Origin: Pedobacter schmidteae
Lineage (GTDB): Bacteria; Bacteroidota; Bacteroidia; Sphingobacteriales; Sphingobacteriaceae
Length of the DNA stretch: 47,504 bases
Reading direction: 5' to 3'
NCBI GenBank assembly: GCA_945901155.1
Contig: CAMDKO010000010.1
Location: 1-47,504, forward strand
Shown in pieces: positions 18,876-30,600 of this stretch; position 1 is the first letter of the stretch, and every line of letters begins with the position of its first letter. Position numbers and translations under genes: made by a program. Below the pieces are notes generated by a model. That model ran no database searches, was not told the origin of the DNA, and saw nothing but the letters and a program-made list of their open reading frames with translations.

Positions 18876-20126
18876 TTATTCAGCACTTGCACGAAACATC
18901 AAGGCTCCAACCGTTAGGTTTGTGCGCGGATCAATCAAAATAGCCCCACCATTCAGTTTATTTACCTGATAAAGATCAAAAGCAAGTGGCTCTGCTGTTC
19001 TGATCACAATTCTACCAATATCATTTAACTGGAAAGTATCCGTTTCTATTTTTTCAAGGGTATTGATATTAACCTTATGGAGAATATCTCTGATCTTACA
19101 TTTGGTAACCTTGCTATTATGCTGCAAAAGATACATGATGGAAGTATCCAGTGGTTTGGTATCCATCCAGCATAGATCTGCTTCAATAGATTGTGAAACA
19201 ATGGGTTCATGTGTTGAGTTAACCAAGATATCTCCACGACCTATGTCAATATTATCTTTTAAATGAAGTGTAACAGATGTTCCACTATGCACTTCATCTT
19301 GTTCCTGCATATTGGTCTCAATCTTGCTAATCTCAGAACGAATGCCTGAGGGTAAAACAGTGATCTTATCATTCACGCGAAAACTACCGCTTAAAACCCT
19401 TCCGGCATAGCCGCGATAATCATGTAGTTCATCAGTCTGAGGCCTAATTACCCATTGTACAGGCATACGTGCCTGAACTGATTTTACATCTTCGTTAACT
19501 TCAGTGGTTTCCAAATGATCCAATAGGCTTTTTCCAGCATACCATGACATATTTTGGGATCTGTTGACGATGTTATCCCCCTTCAATGCACTTACAGGGA
19601 TATAGGTAACCTCTTTTAGCTTAAGTTTTAGAGCAATTTCTGAATAAGATTTATGAATCTTATTGAAGGCATCTTCGCTAAAGTCAACCATATCCATTTT
19701 GTTGATACATACTACCACATGTTTCAATTCCAAGAGAGAAACAATAAATGAGTGCCTGACCGTTTGTTCAACCACCCCATTTCTGGCATCTACAAGAATA
19801 ATAGCTAGATCAGAATTTGAGGCACCAGTAACCATATTTCGGGTATATTGAATATGGCCAGGGGTATCAGCAATGATAAACTTCCTTTTATCTGTTTGGA
19901 AATATTTATAGGCCACATCGATTGTGATTCCTTGTTCACGTTCTGCCTTTAATCCGTCTGTTAAAATAGCAAGGTCAATTGTCCCGTCATCATTTTTACG
20001 GTTGGATTGTTGCAAGGCCTCCAGCTGATCTGCAAGAATGGATTCGCTATCATAAAGTAGACGGCCAATCAAGGTGCTTTTGCCATCATCAACACTTCCG
20101 GCGGTAAAAAATTTAAGTAAATCCAT
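18876..20126 (-). CDS. cysN: Sulfate adenylyltransferase, GTPase subunit CysN
   Basis: Works with CysD: GTP hydrolysis drives adenylation of sulfate to APS. From the ATG at 20126 the protein is 416 residues, with G1 GSVDDGKST (10-18), DTPGH (87-91) and NKMD (142-145), followed by two beta-barrel domains. A longer upstream reading frame to 20204 overlaps cysD by 77 nt and adds 26 residues with no homology pattern, so I reject it. There is no fused APS kinase (CysC) domain. One base separates the cysD stop from this start, which suggests translational coupling. Confidence 0.95.
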   Translation of the reverse strand: MDLLKFFTAGSVDDGKSTLIGRLLYDSESILADQLEALQQSNRKNDDGTIDLAILTDGLKAEREQGITIDVAYKYFQTDKRKFIIADTPGHIQYTRNMVTGASNSDLAIILVDARNGVVEQTVRHSFIVSLLELKHVVVCINKMDMVDFSEDAFNKIHKSYSEIALKLKLKEVTYIPVSALKGDNIVNRSQNMSWYAGKSLLDHLETTEVNEDVKSVQARMPVQWVIRPQTDELHDYRGYAGRVLSGSFRVNDKITVLPSGIRSEISKIETNMQEQDEVHSGTSVTLHLKDNIDIGRGDILVNSTHEPIVSQSIEADLCWMDTKPLDTSIMYLLQHNSKVTKCKIRDILHKVNINTLEKIETDTFQLNDIGRIVIRTAEPLAFDLYQVNKLNGGAILIDPRTNLTVGALMFRASAE

Positions 20127-20127
20127 A

Positions 20128-21033
20128 TTAAAAATACCCCCCTTTTTTGCGGTCTTCCATTGCAGCCTCAGATACTTTATCATCCATGCGGGCTCCCCTT
20201 TCACTAATTTTTGACATTTTTATTTCTTCGATGATATCATCGATCTGATCGGCATCCGATTCAACAGCTGCAGTACAGGTCATATCGCCAACCGTTCTGA
20301 AACGAACATTACGACGTTCAATTTGATCATCCGAATCCATATTCAGACAATCTGCAGCTGCCATTAACTGCCCGTTGCGGGTAATCACATCACGCTCATG
20401 TGCAAAGTAAATAGATGGAAGTTCTATATTCTCTCTGCGGATATAATTCCAGACATCTAATTCTGTCCAGTTACTGATCGGGAAAACCCGTACATTTTCA
20501 CCTTTATGAATCTTTCCGTTATAAATATTCCATAATTCAGGACGCTGACGTTTTGGATCCCATTGACCAAATTCATCACGAACTGAAAATATTCTTTCTT
20601 TAGCTCTGGCCTTTTCCTCATCTCTGCGGGCACCCCCAATACAAGCATCGAACTTTCCCTCAGCAATAGTATCAAGTAATGTTACAGTCTGCAATGCATT
20701 TCTGCTGGCATTCTTTCCTGTTTGCTCAATCACTTTTCCCTGATCGATCGAATCCTGAACATGACCAATAATCAATTTTTCACCGATCCTTGCAATCATA
20801 TCATCTCTGAAGCTAATCGTTTCAGGAAAATTATGACCGGTATCAATATGAACCAGCGGAAAAGGAAATTTGCCCGGTCTGAAAGCCTTTTCTGCCAGCC
20901 TAACAAGTGTGATAGAATCCTTTCCTCCTGAAAAAAGAAGGGCAGGTTTTTCAAACTGTCCGGCAACCTCGCGCAAAATAAAAATTGCTTCGGCTTCCAG
21001 CTGGTCTAAATAGGTAGTATCTTGTTTATTCAT
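20128..21033 (-). CDS. cysD: Sulfate adenylyltransferase, catalytic subunit CysD
   Basis: ATP-pyrophosphatase-fold subunit that forms APS from ATP and sulfate. The PP-loop SGGKDS is at residues 35-40. Other conserved blocks are CIGGARRDEEKARAKERIFS, FPISNWTELDVWNYIRRENI and the C-terminal RFRTVGDMTCTAAVES. Length 301 is normal. It follows cysH after 51 nt and precedes cysN after one base, within the minus-strand sulfur run. Confidence 0.97.
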   Translation of the reverse strand: MNKQDTTYLDQLEAEAIFILREVAGQFEKPALLFSGGKDSITLVRLAEKAFRPGKFPFPLVHIDTGHNFPETISFRDDMIARIGEKLIIGHVQDSIDQGKVIEQTGKNASRNALQTVTLLDTIAEGKFDACIGGARRDEEKARAKERIFSVRDEFGQWDPKRQRPELWNIYNGKIHKGENVRVFPISNWTELDVWNYIRRENIELPSIYFAHERDVITRNGQLMAAADCLNMDSDDQIERRNVRFRTVGDMTCTAAVESDADQIDDIIEEIKMSKISERGARMDDKVSEAAMEDRKKGGYF

Positions 21034-21084: not shown

Positions 21085-21783
21085 TCAGGATGAGTGAAGG
21101 CCGCATTCTTTTTTGTTTTGGTCTTCCCACCACCATCGACCGGCTCTGAAATCTTCACCTTCTTTTACTGCTCTGGTACAGGGAGCACATCCAATACTCG
21201 GGAAACCCTTGTCATGCAATGGATTATACGGGATATTGTTTCCTTTGATAAAAGCTTTTACCTGGTCTAGCGACCAATCAAAAATAGGATGAAATTTATG
21301 AAGCTGATTAGATTCATCCCATTCCACAGCATTCATATCTTCCCTATTCATTGATTGTTCAGCACGTATTCCGGTAATCCACAATGAATTTCCGGCAAGA
21401 GCACGTTTTAAGGGTTCAACCTTTCTGATTCCGCAGCACTCTTTACGGTTCTCTACCGATTCGTAGAAACTACTCGGACCATTAACACTGACCATTCGCT
21501 CAACCGCCTCTGTATTGGGGTAGTATGCATGAACCGGCACTCCATATTTTTCAATAGTTCGGTTCCATACATAATAAGTTTCTGGAAAAAGCCGGCCTGT
21601 TTCGAGAGTGAATACTTTAACAGGTAGTTTATTTGAAAAAATTAGGTGAGAGATCACCTGATCTTCCCAACCAAAACTGCTGGAAAAAACTACTTTCCCA
21701 GGAAATCGATTGATTAACAATTCAAGAGACTGTTCTATACTCAATCCTGCAATTTCCTGTAATATCTCTGCTGATTTGTTCAT
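21085..21783 (-). CDS. cysH: Assimilatory APS/PAPS reductase, [4Fe-4S] type
   Basis: Reduces adenylyl sulfate (APS, possibly also PAPS) to sulfite using thioredoxin-like donors. The cysteine pairs for an Fe-S cluster are visible: Cys116-Cys117 in KECCGIRKVEPL and Cys199/Cys202 in IGCAPCTRAV. The catalytic Cys227 is in the C-terminal KKECGLH. The cluster ligands are the hallmark of the APS-using branch, whereas E. coli-type PAPS reductases lack them. With no APS kinase in the window, direct use of APS is likely. At 232 residues it is at the normal size. It follows metZ by 9 nt. Confidence 0.94.
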   Translation of the reverse strand: MNKSAEILQEIAGLSIEQSLELLINRFPGKVVFSSSFGWEDQVISHLIFSNKLPVKVFTLETGRLFPETYYVWNRTIEKYGVPVHAYYPNTEAVERMVSVNGPSSFYESVENRKECCGIRKVEPLKRALAGNSLWITGIRAEQSMNREDMNAVEWDESNQLHKFHPIFDWSLDQVKAFIKGNNIPYNPLHDKGFPSIGCAPCTRAVKEGEDFRAGRWWWEDQNKKECGLHSS

Positions 21784-21792
21784 TATATTAAA

Positions 21793-22962
21793 TCAGTTTA
21801 TAGAATTTTTAAGTGCTTCAGTCAGGTCTGAAAGGATATCATCAATATCCTCCAAGCCAACAGAGATTCTGATGCTTCCTGGAGATATTCCGATCTGTTT
21901 ACGCTCAGCATCACTTAATTTGGAATGAGTTGTTGAAGCTGGATGTGTAGCTATTGAACGGGTATCTCCAAGATTGGGCGACAACCTGATCATTTGAAGC
22001 GCATCCATAAAACGTTTTGCCCGTTCAAAACCTCCCTTTACAATAAAGGTTACGATGCCACCGCCCTGTTTCATCTGGCGTTTTGCCAATTCATATTGTG
22101 GATGAGATGGGAGAAATGGATATCTGACTAGTTCTACTTCAGGATGCTGTTCAAGAGTTTCTGCCACTTTCAAAGCATTACTACAATGCCTGTCCATACG
22201 TACTGCAAGTGTTTCAAGACTTTTAGAAAGGGTCCATGCATTGAATGGCGACATCGCCGGACCCGTATGCCTGATAAAAAACATCAGTTCTTTCATCAAA
22301 TCTTTACGGCCTACAAGTACCCCGCCCATTACTCTACCCTGTCCATCCATATATTTAGTTGCCGAGTGGCTTACTAGATCGGCGCCAAATTGAATTGGCT
22401 TTTGTAGATAGGGTGTTGCAAAACAGTTGTCAACATTCAGGATGAAATTATGTTTCTTCTTTAAATTACCTAGCCATTCCAGATCTACTAATTCCAAACC
22501 AGGATTTGAAGGCGTTTCAAGAAATACCATTTTGGTTTCCGGACGTAAGGCTGCTTCAAAATCTTCAGGATTTGAGGCATCTACATAGGTTGTGGTAATT
22601 CCCCAGCGAGGTAGCAATTGCGTAAAAAGCTGGTGAGTGGATCCAAAAATTGAGCGAAAAGCAACAATATGATCACCGCTACGTAGTAAACCCGCAATAG
22701 ATGCAAAAACAGCTGCCATTCCTGATGAAAAGGCTAAGCCTGCTTCAGCACCCTCAAAATCGCGAACTTTCTCAATAAACTCGTTGGTATTTGGATTAGA
22801 ATAACGCGAATAAATATTCCCTTCAACCTCATCGGCAAACATTGCTCGGCCATGTTCTGAATCATCAAAAACAAAACTAGATGTCAGATATAAAGGCACA
22901 GAATGCTCTCTGTTTGATGAACGAGGTACCTGGGTACGAATAAGCTTAGATTGTTCTTTCAT
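21793..22962 (-). CDS. metZ: O-succinylhomoserine sulfhydrylase-like PLP enzyme
   Basis: Cys/Met-metabolism PLP family enzyme. YSRYSNPNTNEFIEKV and SSGMAAVFASI are family blocks. The PLP lysine is in SHSATKYMDGQGRVMGGV (Lys203 counted from the ATG), and the DGQGR segment after it is characteristic of MetZ-type sulfhydrylases that make homocysteine from an activated homoserine and sulfide. The acyl group (succinyl or acetyl) cannot be decided from sequence alone. I choose the ATG at 22962 over an in-frame TTG seven codons earlier (22983). Upstream, TATTTTTG at 22988-22981 could give it an internal promoter. Confidence 0.88.
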   Translation of the reverse strand: MKEQSKLIRTQVPRSSNREHSVPLYLTSSFVFDDSEHGRAMFADEVEGNIYSRYSNPNTNEFIEKVRDFEGAEAGLAFSSGMAAVFASIAGLLRSGDHIVAFRSIFGSTHQLFTQLLPRWGITTTYVDASNPEDFEAALRPETKMVFLETPSNPGLELVDLEWLGNLKKKHNFILNVDNCFATPYLQKPIQFGADLVSHSATKYMDGQGRVMGGVLVGRKDLMKELMFFIRHTGPAMSPFNAWTLSKSLETLAVRMDRHCSNALKVAETLEQHPEVELVRYPFLPSHPQYELAKRQMKQGGGIVTFIVKGGFERAKRFMDALQMIRLSPNLGDTRSIATHPASTTHSKLSDAERKQIGISPGSIRISVGLEDIDDILSDLTEALKNSIN

Positions 22963-23036
22963 TTTTTGCGAAGGTTTCGGCAAAAATACTTAATTAAATA
23001 AAATTAATCAGTTGCATTTATGTCGCTAATCTCGAT

Positions 23037-23750
23037 TTAATAGTATTTAACCATAATTACAATCAGACTTATTCCAGCAAATACTGCTGCTAATAATTTC
23101 CAACTGATTTTTCTAAATAAGGGTTTCTCATTTGAATGATTGACCAATGATGCCGTTGCCTTATTCAACTCCTTAACTTTATGTGCAAAATCACCTCCCA
23201 ACGTATTCCTCAGCTTATTCATTTGCTGCAAGGTTAGATCTAGTTCATCAGGTAAATTAGTTTGAAATATCTCTTTGAGCCGTTTAGCAACTGTTGGCGA
23301 TTTCCCATTGGTTGAGATCCCGATCTTTAGATCTCCCTTCTTAACGATTGATCCCAAATAAAAATCACATAGATCAGGCTTATCAGCTACATTGATCAAT
23401 AAATGTCGTTGACGTGCCAAAGACCTGATTTCTGCATTCAGTATATTATCTCCTGTTGCTATAATCACCAGGTCATGACCTTCTAGATCAGCAGCTTCAA
23501 ATCTTTTTGAATGTAATTTAACCCTTGGATAATTGACTGTCAATTGAAGAAGTTTGGGCAAAAAGCTTTCAGCAACAATATTGATCTGGGTATCAGGGCT
23601 ATTTGTTAGAACAGCCTCCAGTTTTTCAAGACCAATGTTCCCTGCTCCAACTAGTAAAACTTTCAATTGGTTTAACTTTAGGAATACCGGAAAAAGCTGA
23701 TTGCCTGTATTGTTTTCCAAAACTTTATTATTCTTGTTCTGAGAATTCAT
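23037..23750 (-). CDS. Siroheme synthase, precorrin-2 dehydrogenase/ferrochelatase, with C-terminal membrane helix
   Basis: Oxidises precorrin-2 to sirohydrochlorin and may insert iron to give siroheme, the cofactor of the sulfite reductase in this operon. An N-terminal Rossmann motif VLLVGAGNIGLEKLEAVL, the IATGDNILNAEIRSLARQ block and the DKPDLCDFYLGSIV and ISTNGKSPTVAKRLKE segments match the N-terminal half of E. coli CysG. The last 25 residues (KLLAAVFAGISLIVIMVKYY) form a hydrophobic helix, suggesting a C-terminal membrane anchor. It overlaps the end of cobA by 23 nt. Confidence 0.9.
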   Translation of the reverse strand: MNSQNKNNKVLENNTGNQLFPVFLKLNQLKVLLVGAGNIGLEKLEAVLTNSPDTQINIVAESFLPKLLQLTVNYPRVKLHSKRFEAADLEGHDLVIIATGDNILNAEIRSLARQRHLLINVADKPDLCDFYLGSIVKKGDLKIGISTNGKSPTVAKRLKEIFQTNLPDELDLTLQQMNKLRNTLGGDFAHKVKELNKATASLVNHSNEKPLFRKISWKLLAAVFAGISLIVIMVKYY

Positions 23751-24519
23751 AAAATGCCTTTATTGGCTGAAACAAGGAATGTAGCCCCACAACCTCGCCA
23801 AATACGATTAGTGCTGGAGAATCTATTTTCTGATCCTGAGCAGATTCAAAGATCGTTCCAGCTGTAGCAACCACAAGCTTCTCATTTTCCATCGTCCCAT
23901 TTTGAATAACAGCAGCTGGCAAACGGTGCTTTCCCTCCGCAATAAATATGTCTGCGATATCCTTAAGCTTTTTGATGCCCATTAAAACCACAACCGTTGC
24001 ATTCGATTTTGCAGCAGCATACAAATCTTTAGAAATCTCCCCAGAACTAGTCGTCCCGGTAATTACCCAGAAACTTTCACTCGCACCACGATGGGTTAAT
24101 GGAATACCCTGCAGGGCAGGCACAGAAATACTACTAGATATGCCAGGAACCACTTCGGCAGGGATACTGTATGATGCAGCCATTTCCAATTCCTCAAATC
24201 CGCGTCCAAAAACAAATGGATCACCTCCTTTTAATCGAACCACATGCCCATAGTTCAAAGCATAGTCGATCATTAACTTATTAACAGCTTCCTGAGAATA
24301 GGAATGATTACCAGAACGCTTACCTACGAATACTTTTATTGCATTTTCAGGAGCAAACTGCAGTAATTCACAATTAACAAGTGCATCATATAAAACTACA
24401 TCTGCAGATTTGAGTACCCTTACACCCTTCATGCTAATTAGTTCTGCGTCACCCGGACCTGCACCTACGAGCGTAATTCTTGGTTCTTTAACTGAGTTAT
24501 TTGTTTGCGTAATTATCAT
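23728..24519 (-). CDS. cobA: Uroporphyrinogen-III C-methyltransferase
   Basis: SAM-dependent enzyme that methylates uroporphyrinogen III at C2 and C7 to give precorrin-2, the first dedicated step to siroheme (and cobalamin). LVGAGPGDAELISMKGVRVL and DVVLYDALVN are the N-terminal signature; GNHSYSQEAVNKLM and RLKGGDPFVFGRGFEE are the diagnostic SUMT blocks; PGISSSISVPALQGIPLTHR follows. Length 263 is usual for stand-alone SUMT. It follows the sulfite reductase by one base and overlaps the siroheme synthase, so the cofactor genes are coupled to the reductase. Confidence 0.96.
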   Translation of the reverse strand: MIITQTNNSVKEPRITLVGAGPGDAELISMKGVRVLKSADVVLYDALVNCELLQFAPENAIKVFVGKRSGNHSYSQEAVNKLMIDYALNYGHVVRLKGGDPFVFGRGFEELEMAASYSIPAEVVPGISSSISVPALQGIPLTHRGASESFWVITGTTSSGEISKDLYAAAKSNATVVVLMGIKKLKDIADIFIAEGKHRLPAAVIQNGTMENEKLVVATAGTIFESAQDQKIDSPALIVFGEVVGLHSLFQPIKAFYEFSEQE

Positions 24520-24520
24520 C

Positions 24521-26614
24521 TTAATTGAACTCCTTTGCTAGTTTAACTCTTTTAATAAAATCAACAGTTGATCCAAGGTAAGCTCGGGCAAATTCTGCTG
24601 ATGGCTCATTTTTATTTATTTGCAATACCAAATCGGCAAAGCTTTCCAATCCCTTAAGAATCTGACTGTCTTTATATTGCTCATCAAAATCACGAATGAT
24701 TCCAACCTGTGTACTGCTATTGATTCCTTTATCCAATAATAATGCTTTTGCACTGCTGATAAATACACTGTAGGCATGATAGATTGAATCAGAATATGCT
24801 TTCGCATCCATTGATTCAATTGACCAATTCAGCTTTTCTTCTGCTTCAAGCAAGAGTGTTGAAACCAAGTCGATCATCACACCGGCACATTCTCCAACGC
24901 CAATTGCCGTTTCAAAGATCTCTTCGTGTCCCCAATCAACAAACTCATCGGGAGTTAATGTACTTAGATCGGCTAGTGGCTTTAATAACTGGTAAAAATG
25001 ATCTTTACCAAATCTGTCATAAAAGTCGTTGAACAATTCATCCCTATTTTTATTCTTGCTATAATTATCCAAAATAACCCGAACCACATCCTTGGTTCTT
25101 TTAGACGGCACCTTTATAACCTTATCTGCAGCACGACCCACACCATCGCCCACGGTACCGCCTCCCAATAAAACCTGAGCAGCAGGCACAACCTTACCCG
25201 CAGCTTTGAGCGAACTTCCATGGAAACCGATGTGCGCCAAACCATGTTGTCCACAACTGTTCATACAGCCGCTAATCTTTATTTTTATATCCTGATTCTC
25301 TATCAGTTCATCAAATTCTTCTGAGATCAGATCTTCAAGAACTCGTGCAAGTTCGGTACTGTTTGAAATACCGAGGTTACAGGTATCCGTTCCGGGGCAG
25401 GTTGTAATATCACTCACACTGTCGAACCCCGGCTTTACAAAGTCAAGTTCCTTCAATCGCTCAAACAAAACCGGTAAAGCCTCTTTACGAACATATTTGA
25501 GAAGCAAACCCTGATTGATTGTGATACGAATTTCATCGGCAACCAATCCGTTGATTGCTGCAATAAATTTTCTTGCCTTGCTTGTTGGAATATCTCCAGT
25601 TGTAACCTTGATGTAAACTCCATAAAAACCATGTTGCTTTTGCTCAAAGACATTAGTATCCAGCCATCTTTGATAAAGTAACTGATCTGAAATAGTTGCA
25701 TCCGTCAGCTCTATTTTATCAGGAATCTGAGGAAGATCAACCGTGTCACGATCAATGTTGAAATGTTTAGTCCGGTTTGCAACTCTCTCTTGCGCGATTA
25801 GGCTTAATACTTCATCAAGACCTAATTTTGCAACAAGAAATTTCATCCTTGCTTTATTTCTGTTACTGCGTTCGCCATACCTGTCAAAAACACGCAATGT
25901 TGATTCTATGTAGGGAATCAGCTCATCTTCGGGCAAAAATTCATTCACCATATGGGCAATGGATGGCTGCGCCCCTAAGCCACCACCAAATAAAACTTTA
26001 AAACCACGAACTTCTTTCCCTTCTTTCAGAATAAGTTTAGGAATAAAGCCTAGATCATGAATATAGGTAAAGGCTGTATCCGCATCACTCGAAGAAAAGG
26101 CGATCTTAAACTTTCTACCCATCTCCTGACAAATTGGATTGCGAAGGAAATATTTGAAAGTTGCATAAGCATAAGGTGATACATCAAAGGGCTCATTCGG
26201 GTCAATACCAGATGTTGGAGATGCCGTTACATTTCGTACAGTATTACCACAGGCCTCCCTTAGTGTAATATCATCTTGCTCGAGTTTAGCCCATAGCTCT
26301 GGAGTTCGGTCAAGGCTTACATAATGGATCTGAATATCCTGACGTGTTGTTAAATGAAGGTTGCTACTGGCATATTCATCTGATATGTCGGCAATACGCA
26401 AAAACTGCTTAAAACTAACTTTCCCAAATGGTAACTTGATCCTAATCATTTGAACACCGGGCTGCCTCTGACCGTAAATTCCACGGGCTAAACGGAGACT
26501 ACGGAACTTCTCATCATGTATCTTACCATCGCGAAATTCTCTGATCTTTTTTTCAAGATCGACAATATCTTTTTGAACAATTGGATCTTCTAATTCTGTT
26601 CTGAAACTATTCAT
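24521..26614 (-). CDS. Siroheme/[4Fe-4S] sulfite (or nitrite) reductase with HEPN-like C-terminal extension
   Basis: Reduces sulfite to sulfide (or nitrite to ammonia). The duplicated nitrite/sulfite reductase fold is clear: NLHLTTRQDIQIHYVSL, ASPTSGIDP, and the cluster cysteines Cys406 and Cys412 (TCPGTDTCNLG) with Cys450 and Cys454 (SGCMNSCGQHG). Context (cysH, cysDN, cobA, metZ) argues for sulfite. No flavoprotein CysJ is nearby, so the electron donor is probably ferredoxin. Residues from about 580 to 697 are an all-helical extension with AKAYSDSIYHAYSVFISSAK, resembling a HEPN domain; this is outside the standard fold. It is the first structural gene of the operon and starts 18 nt after an intrinsic terminator-like hairpin. 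Confidence 0.9.
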   Translation of the reverse strand: MNSFRTELEDPIVQKDIVDLEKKIREFRDGKIHDEKFRSLRLARGIYGQRQPGVQMIRIKLPFGKVSFKQFLRIADISDEYASSNLHLTTRQDIQIHYVSLDRTPELWAKLEQDDITLREACGNTVRNVTASPTSGIDPNEPFDVSPYAYATFKYFLRNPICQEMGRKFKIAFSSSDADTAFTYIHDLGFIPKLILKEGKEVRGFKVLFGGGLGAQPSIAHMVNEFLPEDELIPYIESTLRVFDRYGERSNRNKARMKFLVAKLGLDEVLSLIAQERVANRTKHFNIDRDTVDLPQIPDKIELTDATISDQLLYQRWLDTNVFEQKQHGFYGVYIKVTTGDIPTSKARKFIAAINGLVADEIRITINQGLLLKYVRKEALPVLFERLKELDFVKPGFDSVSDITTCPGTDTCNLGISNSTELARVLEDLISEEFDELIENQDIKIKISGCMNSCGQHGLAHIGFHGSSLKAAGKVVPAAQVLLGGGTVGDGVGRAADKVIKVPSKRTKDVVRVILDNYSKNKNRDELFNDFYDRFGKDHFYQLLKPLADLSTLTPDEFVDWGHEEIFETAIGVGECAGVMIDLVSTLLLEAEEKLNWSIESMDAKAYSDSIYHAYSVFISSAKALLLDKGINSSTQVGIIRDFDEQYKDSQILKGLESFADLVLQINKNEPSAEFARAYLGSTVDFIKRVKLAKEFN

Positions 26615-26632
26615 TAATTTTTTACAAAAAAT

Positions 26633-26661
26633 AACCTCTTCTACCAGTGGGTGAAGAGGTT
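26633..26661 (-). terminator. Attenuator hairpin in front of the sulfite reductase gene
   Basis: On the minus strand AACCTCTTC (26661-26653) and GAAGAGGTT (26641-26633) form a perfect 9-bp stem with an 11-nt loop, followed directly by ATTTTTTG. It is thus a textbook intrinsic terminator shape placed before, not after, a gene: the sulfite reductase ATG is at 26614. Together with the Cys-rich leader frame upstream I read it as a conditional (attenuating) terminator. Confidence 0.8.
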
Positions 26662-26678
26662 CATATAAATAAATCTTT

Positions 26679-26692
26679 ACCTGGTCTTCTTC
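26679..26692 (-). promoter_or_regulatory. Candidate antiterminator segment
   Basis: On the minus strand GAAGAAGACCAGGT starts 6 nt after the leader stop codon. GAAG and AGGT in it can pair with CTTC and ACCT in the 5' arm of the downstream terminator (8 bp with a 3-nt bulge); alternatively ACCAG can pair with CTGGT in the terminator loop. Either pairing would compete with terminator formation. Derived by hand, no folding energy was computed. Confidence 0.45.
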
Positions 26693-26698
26693 AATGTT

Positions 26699-26764
26699 TT
26701 ACATGCACATATAACAACAATCTAGTGTTGTTTCATTGTTCATATGGCAGCTAAAATTTTTCAT
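26699..26764 (-). CDS. Cys/Met-rich 21-residue leader peptide of the sulfur operon
   Basis: An ATG at 26764 opens 21 codons closed by TAA at 26699. The peptide begins MKNFSCHM and ends DCCYMCM, with Cys at positions 6, 16, 17 and 20 and Met at 1, 8, 19 and 21. Four cysteines in 21 residues is far above normal for proteins, and the gene controlled is a cysteine/methionine biosynthetic operon. The tandem Cys codons (26719-26714) lie within a 7-bp hairpin (26713-26732) and 22 nt upstream of the candidate antiterminator. I infer a regulatory leader that reports on charged tRNA-Cys by ribosome stalling. The frame is too short to be called by most gene finders. Translation is not shown by the sequence itself; no Shine-Dalgarno sequence is present. 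Confidence 0.75.
   Translation of the reverse strand: MKNFSCHMNNETTLDCCYMCM
26713..26732 (-). repeat. Hairpin overlapping the Cys-Cys codons of the leader
   Basis: On the minus strand AACAACA (26732-26726) and TGTTGTT (26719-26713) form a 7-bp stem with a 6-nt loop. The 3' arm is the tandem Cys codon pair. It could be a pause structure or part of the attenuation switch; it is AT-rich and weak. Confidence 0.4.
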
Positions 26765-26768
26765 TGAC

Positions 26769-26776
26769 CAAATATA
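26769..26776 (-). promoter_or_regulatory. Candidate -7 box of the sulfur operon
   Basis: On the minus strand TATATTTG matches TAnnTTTG exactly. It ends only 4 nt before the leader peptide ATG (26764), so transcription would begin at or next to that codon and give a leaderless leader frame. No -33 TTTG was found at the usual spacing. Confidence 0.45.
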
Positions 26777-26821
26777 ATACAAAGTATATAGATTTAGTAG
26801 ACTTTTATTTAAATTTTTTTT

Positions 26822-27265
26822 TTACACCTCCGTATTTTGAATTAAAAGGCCTTCACGACGAATAACATCAGCAATACTAGTTTCGCTTAAAATCTTCAAA
26901 GTTGCATTTCTAACTTCCAGAAACACATCTCTTACACCACAAGTTGCTTCATTGCTGCATTCATCACACTTCTGATAGAAATTCAAGCTAACACATGGCA
27001 ATAGTGCTACAGGGCCCCCGGTAAGACGCAATACCTGAACCACGAAGATCTCAGCAGGATCTTTAACCAGCCCATATCCACCACCGGCTCCCTTCTTACT
27101 GTAAAGTAATCCGGCATTCCTTAAATCGAGTAGAATTTGTTCAAGGAATTTTTTGGGGATATGTTCCTCAGAGGCAATTTTCGAGATTTGCATAGGTGCC
27201 TCCCCAAAAATTTTACCCAAAACCACCAGGGCTTTTATTGCATAACGCGTTTTTTTAGAAAGCAT
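26822..27265 (-). CDS. Rrf2-family transcriptional regulator
   Basis: Winged-helix DNA-binding protein of 147 residues. The N-terminal MLSKKTRYAIKALVVL and PKKFLEQILLDLRNAGLLYS recognition region, followed by GAGGGYGL, are the Rrf2 signature. Cysteines 91, 100, 103 and 109 (in LLPCVSL, YQKCDEC and ATCGVRD) sit where IscR/NsrR/CymR-like members bind an Fe-S cluster or sense thiols, but the spacing differs from the IscR C-x5-C-x5-C type. It is directly upstream of the sulfur operon on the same strand, with the leader region between, so it is probably its regulator; CymR, an Rrf2 protein, controls cysteine metabolism in Bacillus and Staphylococcus. The link here is inferred from position. Confidence 0.92.
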   Translation of the reverse strand: MLSKKTRYAIKALVVLGKIFGEAPMQISKIASEEHIPKKFLEQILLDLRNAGLLYSKKGAGGGYGLVKDPAEIFVVQVLRLTGGPVALLPCVSLNFYQKCDECSNEATCGVRDVFLEVRNATLKILSETSIADVIRREGLLIQNTEV

Positions 27266-27330: not shown

Positions 27331-27376
27331 GAGGTCGGTTGTCTGTTGTCTGTTGGTTAGGTGGTTAGTTGGTTAG
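27331..27376. repeat. Short degenerate repeats (TTGTCTG and nTGGTTAG units)
   Basis: Two tandem TTGTCTG units (27339-27352) run into three 8-bp units TTGGTTAG, GTGGTTAG, TTGGTTAG (27353-27376). They lie in the spacer between the Rrf2 gene and the MFS gene, which shows no coding sequence I can support. Confidence 0.7.
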
Positions 27377-27416
27377 TTAAAATTGCCTCGGGCTAATCAT
27401 TTCAAATGATTACTCT

Positions 27417-27538
27417 TCTCTGCTTTTACCTTTTAGCTTTCTGCTTTTGCCTTTTATCTGTTGTCTGTTATCAGTTGTCTGAGGTTGGAGGTATGAGGTA
27501 TGAGATATTAGATATGAGATATGAGATATGAGATATGA
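27417..27538. repeat. Phased heptanucleotide repeat array
   Basis: From 27417 the sequence divides into consecutive 7-bp words without phase loss: pyrimidine-rich words such as TTTTACC, TTTTAGC, TTTCTGC, TTTTGCC, TTTTATC (27424-27458), then TGTTGTC, TGTTATC, AGTTGTC (27459-27479), then purine-rich words ending in GGTATGA twice, GATATTA once and GATATGA four times (27490-27538). It is non-coding. A small plus-strand reading frame starting at 27535 uses its end, but looks fortuitous. Confidence 0.8.
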
Positions 27539-27586
27539 AAAAAGCAGAAAATTTCAGATTAGCACTAAAAAGTCTTTGTTCTTTAA

Positions 27587-30229: not shown

Positions 30230-30600
30230 GATTTTTTTTGAAAAGCAATACCAGTGCTTTTGGCTTGCTTCAGCCGGGCTCTGCGCTGTAGCTTTTGCCG
30301 TGAAATTTTGATGTGATTAATAAAATTGATTCGGCAAAAGGCCGCCGCTTCAATCCCGTTTAGATTGCAGGGACAGTGGTTATTTATTTGTAGCTAAGAT
30401 CTTATTAATAAAATTAAATCCTAAAGCATGCAAGCCTTACAAAAGAACTACAACAGAGGCTAAATTAAACCGGGGCGGCAGCGGTAGCTTTTTTGCGATC
30501 AGGATTTTTGTCATTTACGATTTTTTGAATGCAAAAAACTAAAGCAGAGCCCGTCCGAACGGGTTCATCCGGGCGGGCACCGGACTGAAATAACGAAAGA
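30230..30600. repeat. GC-rich degenerate extragenic repeats in a 630-bp gene-free spacer
   Basis: Between the SGNH hydrolase (ends 30162) and uvrA (ends 30793) there is no supportable gene. Within it CTTTTGCCG (30292-30300) is the reverse complement of CGGCAAAAG (30332-30340). GCGCTGTAGCTTTTGCC is partly repeated as GCAGCGGTAGCTTTTTTGC further on. GCCCGTCCG (30549-30557) can pair with part of CCGGGCGGGC (30569-30578). These are GC-rich islands in AT-rich surroundings, resembling decayed repetitive extragenic elements. Confidence 0.55.

Follow-up and report, generated by a model that had tools for sequence, protein, structure and literature searches.

The window, by which we mean the whole 47,504-nucleotide stretch of Pedobacter schmidteae contig CAMDKO010000010.1, carries on its minus strand an operon for sulfate assimilation that is preceded by a short cysteine-rich reading frame, a putative promoter and a terminator-like hairpin, with a regulator gene immediately upstream. 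In the order in which they would be transcribed, the features are:

26822–27265, minus strand: Rrf2-family regulator gene (IscR/CymR superfamily), immediately upstream of the leader region; PF02082 at 1.6e-34, TIGR00738 above cut-off.
26784–26802, minus strand: conserved operator-like element GTCTACTAAATCTATATAC, located after the Rrf2 gene and ahead of the promoter and present in same-genus relatives.
26769–26776, minus strand: predicted sigma-A −7 box TATATTTG, from the sequence and the TAnnTTTG consensus.
26764, minus strand: predicted transcription start at the A of the leader ATG, from the position of the box.
26699–26764, minus strand: leader peptide ORF MKNFSCHMNNETTLDCCYMCM, from the sequence and ORF translation, conserved in relatives.
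26714–26719, minus strand: adjacent Cys codons 16 and 17 (TGT TGT) in the sequence, taken here as the putative regulatory codons from their position and from Met clustering in relatives.
26688–26693, minus strand: predicted antiterminator arm TGAAGA just past the stop codon, which pairs with TCTTCA of the terminator 5′ arm when the RNA is folded behind a stalled ribosome.
26653–26661, minus strand: predicted terminator 5′ arm AACCTCTTC, common to the antiterminator, from a hairpin rule and folding.
26633–26641, minus strand: predicted terminator 3′ arm GAAGAGGTT, from the same hairpin rule and folding.
26625–26632, minus strand: U-rich tract ATTTTTTG following the terminator hairpin, from the sequence.
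24521–26614, minus strand: NirA/SiR-like sulfite reductase, first gene of the operon (PF01077 and PF03460; NIR_SIR and NIR_SIR_ferr domains).
23728–24519, minus strand: uroporphyrinogen-III C-methyltransferase for siroheme (NF004790 and TIGR01469 above cut-off).
23037–23750, minus strand: siroheme synthase N-terminal-type dehydrogenase (TIGR01470 above cut-off).
21793–22983, minus strand: O-succinylhomoserine sulfhydrylase-like enzyme of the homocysteine/Met branch (PF01053; NF006003 at 505 bits, slightly below the cut-off of 522).
21085–21783, minus strand: CysH, APS/PAPS reductase (NF002537 and TIGR02055 above cut-off).
20128–21033, minus strand: CysD, sulfate adenylyltransferase small subunit (TIGR02039 above cut-off).
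18876–20204, minus strand: CysN, sulfate adenylyltransferase large subunit (TIGR02034 above cut-off).

The domain content of the downstream genes confirms that the short frame stands before a sulfate-assimilation operon, as a preliminary description of this DNA had claimed. The operon products supply sulfide for both cysteine and homocysteine/methionine. The sulfite reductase scores below the cut-offs of the NCBIfam NirA and SiR models, and its residues 586–662 carry a C-terminal HEPN match (PF05168, 24.3 bits, cut-off 22). The Rrf2-family gene likewise scores below the cut-offs of the CymR and IscR models; its product is a possible second control layer on the operon, and the GTCTACTAAATCTATATAC-like element is a candidate site for it. 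Elsewhere in the window, the Rfam motif Flavo-1 RNA, which has no clear function, is matched at 30268–30365 (minus strand; 45.5 bits, gathering 42), and a low-complexity stretch at 27340–27540, with repeats of TGTCTGTTG, GGTTAGTT and TATGAGATATGAGA, lies between the Rrf2 gene and the transporter gene that comes next.

The leader ORF reads from ATG to TAA between 26764 and 26699 and has 21 codons, with Cys at codons 6, 16, 17 and 20 and with in-frame Met at codons 8, 19 and 21; its stop codon is 84 nt from the start of the sulfite reductase gene. The minus-strand sequence thus bears out the 21-codon frame with four Cys codons, two of them adjacent, that the preliminary description had noted, and the further claim that such a frame is unlikely to arise here by chance also holds. 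A scan of both strands of the 47.5-kb window for leader-like frames (12–45 codons, containing CC and with a terminator no more than 110 nt away) gives this frame alone, and frames of this kind recur in relatives far above background. The ORF is separated from the first gene by a terminator-like hairpin and U tract at 26661–26625, as recognized by our own hairpin rule; the preliminary description is silent on this hairpin and on the promoter box.

The TAnnTTTG box stands exactly 4 nt before the ATG of the window leader. The sigma-A box of Flavobacterium psychrophilum, which has this consensus, occupies −12 to −5 (PMC9723704), so a box 4 nt upstream predicts that +1 falls on the start codon and that the mRNA is leaderless, which is a minority type (5.5%) in that species (PMC9723704). 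Among the 110 distinct leaders described below, the spacing from box to start codon is exactly 4 nt in 73 and 5–14 nt in the other 37; none of the 110 has a second candidate box, so the 4-nt spacing is independent of box choice. The leader mRNA would therefore be leaderless in many of these loci, as predicted from consensus box spacing. A simple promoter/terminator scan of the window flagged neither the leader promoter nor the terminator, because the promoter has the form typical of Bacteroidota and the scan allows loops of no more than 8, whereas this terminator has one of 11 when its inner pairs are disregarded.

Conservation was assessed in the DNA upstream of related sulfite reductase genes. 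The search for this enzyme matched 17 of 20 genomes in the genus, 131 of 151 in the family, 116 of 121 in the order and, in the class, 40 of 149 and then 106 of 395. Part of these matches was analysed, comprising 130 loci from genus and family (L001–L130), another 31 from the family and 59 from other families; 80 named loci, mostly Pedobacter and Mucilaginibacter, were added, some of which are genomes already in the other sets, so that the counts are not additive. L112 (66 bases) was left out of the counts, which leaves 129 of L001–L130. A uniform rule (ORF of 12–45 codons with C.?C, terminator within 115 nt) finds a Cys ORF and terminator upstream of the sulfite reductase in 46 of these 129 loci, with positives in genera g1 (12/17), g14 (10/18), g15 (15/18), g19 (4/16), g4 (2/9), g8 (2/2) and g18 (1/2), and in none of the 47 loci from the other genera of this set, including g17 (0/18) and g16 (0/5). 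The same rule is positive in 22 of the 31 later family loci and in 52 of the 80 named loci. In the rest of the class, where 59 loci represent 23 other families, Cys-selected units of Cys ORF and terminator occur at 23 loci in 13 families. The background of the uniform rule is 16 matches in 1,241,094 strand-bases of flanking, mostly coding DNA, or 0.4% per stretch of equal size; when the promoter box is also required, 24 of 97 loci match near the gene, and the scan of 667,856 bases on either strand gives 0 matches elsewhere.

The frame and its Cys codons are conserved in close relatives: C.?C and a terminator are present in 12 of the 17 loci from the genus. Other peptide residues change there, but promoter, ORF, TGTTGT and terminator are kept, with exceptions: Cys-Tyr replaces the Cys-Cys pair in L002, the leader frame is shifted or broken in L008 (a draft genome), and leader ORF and terminator are absent in L013 and L016. 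Leader sequences differ strongly between genera, and leaders are found in deposited Pedobacter and Mucilaginibacter strains (e.g., L222 and L210). The attenuator switch seems to have been lost or replaced frequently in relatives. At four g19 loci, L024 (= L206, Pedobacter puniceum), L030, L031 and L033, the terminator is kept behind a different, well conserved leader without a Cys ORF, which may sense some other signal.

A selection blind to Cys was applied to 269 loci, with a leader defined as an ORF that starts with ATG or GTG 3–14 nt downstream of a TAnnTTTG box and ends ahead of the terminator. There was no terminator at 87 loci and no boxed ORF at 47; the remainder gave 110 distinct leaders, which form 68 clusters under 75% identity with the same Cys/Met pattern. 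At least one Cys is present in 106 of these box-selected leaders, C.?C in 93 and CC in 85, and four are Cys-free, so that the conservation seen in close relatives is also found when Cys plays no part in the choice of leaders. Cys codons number 292 of 2332 in frame, compared to 179 and 39 in the other frames and to a mean of 136 (sd 10, max 169) in dinucleotide shuffles; the TGY excess in the +1 frame may derive partly from ATG followed by a pyrimidine. Non-initiator Met codons number 193 of 2332 in frame, compared to 24 and 14 in the other frames and to a shuffled mean of 87 (sd 8, max 106). Both Cys codons are in use (TGT 103, TGC 80), the first Cys of the pair falls at codons 13–17 in 47 of 54 clusters, and the distance to the terminator peaks near 54–60 nt.

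Met is also concentrated beside Cys. Across 97 distinct peptides, a set in which 33 units had been picked by C.?C, 144 of 217 non-start Met residues lie no more than two codons from a Cys, compared to a mean of 62 (sd 6, max 83) when the other residues are shuffled. Tyr is near Cys as well in this set (53 of 104), which may reflect TGY–TAY changes. Cys is thus probably not the sole signal in these leaders, and the Met codons concentrated at the same place would be read as part of it.

Folding of the window RNA gives two alternative structures. When the ribosome is stalled at codon 16 or 17 before the terminator 3′ arm has been made, the TGAAGA:TCTTCA helix forms (−8.2 kcal/mol), and with the ribosome at the stop codon the terminator folds (−17.9 kcal/mol); the best two-strand duplex of the antiterminator lies in a nearby register, AGAAGACCAGGTA. 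Once the RNA is fully transcribed, the terminator wins at equilibrium even with the antiterminator arm free, and therefore the attenuation model needs kinetic folding. Compared to dinucleotide shuffles of the segment, antiterminator pairing has p ≤ 0.05 in 15 of 54 leaders, with a mean z of −1.28 and a Fisher combination of 7e-14; taken singly, 39 of the 54 leaders are not significant, including that of the window (p 0.19). Much the same result is obtained if the pair is replaced by an early Cys as the reference point for some leaders, including that of the window (15 of 57; window p 0.215). In 66 of 83 units the pairing is better with the leader's own arm than with arms taken from other leaders (Wilcoxon 2e-9). 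Kinship among the leaders makes them non-independent, so these p-values are optimistic. In 26 of 54 leaders the best pairing starts 21–25 nt beyond the pair's first Cys, a start that, given the size of the ribosome footprint, is clear of a Cys-stalled ribosome and covered by one at the stop codon; it starts under 18 nt in 13 of 54, where a Cys-stalled ribosome might cover part of the arm, which is a weaker fit.

Covariation links the two structures in another group of leaders. The 5′-arm motif CCTCTT[CT]AGC occurs in 25 leaders, 16 of which have a [GA]GCT[AG] arm near the stop codon. Where this arm has G, the terminator 5′ arm has C and the 3′ arm G (nine leaders); where it has A, they have T and A (seven), and no leader is discordant. 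The remaining nine lack a [GA]GCT[AG] arm, and five of them have GGTTG. The covariation alignment consists of 24 chosen Mucilaginibacter-type leaders from g15 and named Mucilaginibacter, namely 21 of the 25 motif leaders (L029 as its named twin L210) together with L173, L214 and L236; L014, L020, L038 and L040, which are without a GGCT/GGTT arm, were left out. In these selected leaders, antiterminator pairs are present in 98.3% of cells and the variable column pair is GC in 15, AU in 8 and GU in 1, and the same 5′-arm base pairs with the terminator 3′ arm as CG in 15 and UA in 9; a single base thus covaries with two partners that exclude each other. The A and T arm forms are found with several unrelated leader peptides, and the sequence counts do not equal counts of events. 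In the window's genus, where 14 of 17 leaders were aligned (without L008, L013 and L016), the arm reads TTGAAGA in 10, TTGAGGA in 3 and TTGAAAG in 1, and there is no covariation because the arm hardly varies.

Rfam gives no gathering-level match at 26560–26900, with two weak matches (E 0.41 and 3.1) at E ≤ 5, and none relevant to the leader at gathering level in the whole window. A T-box or SAM riboswitch was dropped as a candidate; there is no Rfam match and the signal is an in-frame peptide code.

These features make it highly probable that the leader would act as a ribosome-mediated transcription attenuator, which reads charged tRNA-Cys, and probably tRNA-Met, and controls the sulfate-assimilation, siroheme and homocysteine operon. 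Transcription would start at or beside the leader ATG, and a 70S ribosome would load at the 5′ end at once. With sufficient Cys-tRNA, the ribosome would reach the stop codon and cover the arm at or just past it (TGAAGA in the window, GGCTG or GGCTA overlapping the stop codon in Mucilaginibacter-type leaders), so that the terminator hairpin would form and RNA polymerase would stop, as judged from position and folding. With scarce Cys-tRNA, the ribosome would stall on the upstream Cys codons and leave the arm free to pair with the terminator 5′ arm, and transcription would continue. The charging of tRNA would thus be the signal. Attenuation by a Cys leader had been suggested in the preliminary description, and the terminator, the alternative helix and the covariation support it.

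The peptide rather than its codons could be the sensor if a Cys/Met-rich nascent chain arrested translation on binding a thiophilic ligand, such as Cu(I), within the ribosome tunnel, in which case the operon would answer metal or redox stress and not Cys supply. Runs such as MMCCMMC and MMCCCCCMM do resemble Cu(I)-binding peptides, but the spacing and length of the runs are unconserved, the same position holds a single Cys in some leaders (e.g., MKTVKHSIISMTMRCMNG) and a CCCC run in others, conservation tracks codon position relative to the terminator, and the downstream genes are biosynthetic rather than metal-handling; we regard such a sensor as very improbable. A terminator/antiterminator switch would be dispensable altogether if the ORF acted through translational coupling or Rho-dependent polarity, the mode proposed for cys leaders of mycobacteria. 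A conserved terminator hairpin was not found for those leaders in 2005 (PMC1262725), so a Cys leader can work without one. Positive loci in Bacteroidia, however, have a terminator hairpin between ORF and gene, its 5′ arm is common to the covarying alternative helix in Mucilaginibacter-type leaders, and the window leader ends 84 nt upstream of the gene start, all of which makes coupling or polarity very unlikely here. It could also be argued that the frame is a chance by-product, that only the promoter and the conserved upstream box under Rrf2 control matter, and that the terminator is accidental or a leftover. An Rrf2 gene does adjoin, and the GTCTACTAAATCTATATAC-like box is kept in L013 and, less exactly, in L016, both of which have lost leader ORF and terminator. 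The in-frame enrichment of Cys and Met far beyond shuffles, conservation across divergent DNA (68 clusters under 75% identity) and the low background nevertheless leave this explanation strongly disfavoured and scarcely credible.

A ribosome-mediated attenuator of this kind would resemble the trp, his, thr and leu attenuators of Proteobacteria, which have a leader peptide rich in the end product, mutually exclusive hairpins and an intrinsic terminator. The Bacteroidia leaders likewise have end-product codons in a short ORF (Cys in 106 of 110), a terminator before the first gene and a mutually exclusive putative antiterminator (24 selected leaders and set-wide tests). They differ in the combination of Cys and Met, predicted leaderless initiation, a short two-state switch and an antiterminator arm placed at the stop codon. 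A 2020 study by Canestrari is said, from its title, to describe mycobacterial polycysteine sORFs as leaderless; the likeness to the present leaders lies in the Cys run and in a leaderless start that is predicted here from box spacing, whereas the intrinsic terminator and covarying antiterminator are features of the Bacteroidota leaders. In mycobacteria, too, cys genes are preceded by short ORFs in which runs of Cys codons lie close to the stop (PMC1262725), and a 2026 paper terms mycobacterial polycysteine control translation attenuation (PMC13236596). Ribosome-mediated attenuation has been inferred for the uORFC-8-2 motif in the cysS leader of Rhodobacterales, which is similar in its short ORF, two tandem Cys codons at about codons 14–15 and U-run terminator, and differs in that it belongs to another phylum and precedes a cysteinyl-tRNA synthetase gene rather than sulfite reductase and sulfate assimilation (PMC8632094). 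Met codons, a predicted leaderless start and serial copies are features of the Bacteroidia leaders that the available part of that paper does not mention for uORFC-8-2 (PMC8632094).

The preliminary description had also proposed a new class of cysteine sensor in Bacteroidota. As a mechanism the class is not new, since Cys attenuators have been described in mycobacteria and Rhodobacterales; novelty within the phylum stands to the extent that no cysteine leader for Bacteroidota appeared among the titles and abstract openings listed by literature searches, not all of which were aimed at the phylum, and this speaks only weakly for its absence from print. For Flavobacterium psychrophilum, attenuation of amino-acid operons by leader peptides is mentioned, with short ORFs in 5′ leaders (PMC9723704), and leader-like sORFs are reported in 5′ leaders of Bacteroides thetaiotaomicron (PMC7366714); a cysteine or sulfur operon is not named in the available part of either source. 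The leaders would supply Cys sensing, and probably also Met sensing, for sulfate assimilation in a phylum for which none was found in the literature searched, and would show Cys-codon attenuation to recur, with differing read-outs, in phyla far apart. The original observation is confirmed, and the evidence supports a mechanism that is sharpened by the predicted leaderless start, terminator and stop-codon antiterminator and widened by putatively read Met codons, serial units and further sulfur operons. Met clustering beside Cys, serial units and further sulfur operons are additions beyond the original attenuator idea.

Two Cys ORF and terminator units stand in series at 10 of the 59 other-family loci, from six families (L135, L136, L139, L141, L143, L144, L156, L291, L301 and L302, all upstream of sulfite reductase). 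In all ten pairs, a TAnnTTTG box stands 10–19 nt ahead of the ATG of the first unit, and the 60 nt ahead of the second contain none; therefore, one transcript probably passes both units. A metX-like gene lies just upstream of the serial pair in G253 and G406, and further Cys ORFs in L154 and L304 were not taken as units by the counting rule. Of the 848 codons in the other-family units, 133 are Cys and 107 Met; their two alternative frames have 9 and 4 Met codons. The tandem attenuators of Salmonella mgtCBR are comparable, with two short ORFs in one leader that control transcription, and differ in having one long leader before a Mg2+/virulence operon, whereas here two like Cys/Met units each have their own terminator (PMC3641672). 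Two like attenuators in series would be an unusual circuit, for which sharper or lower-leak control is conceivable.

Loci of cysK, metX and cysD were also searched in 10 genomes, and 52 loci, which are part of the matches, were scanned. No further unit is present at the five loci scanned in the window's own genome. Besides the serial pairs, further units precede cysC-cysD-like genes in G281 and in G504, the latter also with cysN, and G504 has another before a cysE-cysK-like pair. The assignments of CysD and CysK come from profile matches, and those of cysC, cysE and cysN from reading translations. There is perhaps an even chance that Bacteroidia have a family of leaderless or near-leaderless leader peptides that reads Cys and Met and forms a sulfur regulon (the sulfite reductase operon, cysC-cysD and cysE-cysK), with two attenuators in series behind one promoter in several families. 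If this is true, RNA polymerase has two separate checks of charging to pass on its way to the sulfate-reduction genes. The units before the cysC-cysD-like genes and the cysE-cysK-like pair lie at about 752–850 of L364, about 670–815 of L365 and about 454–600 of L318.
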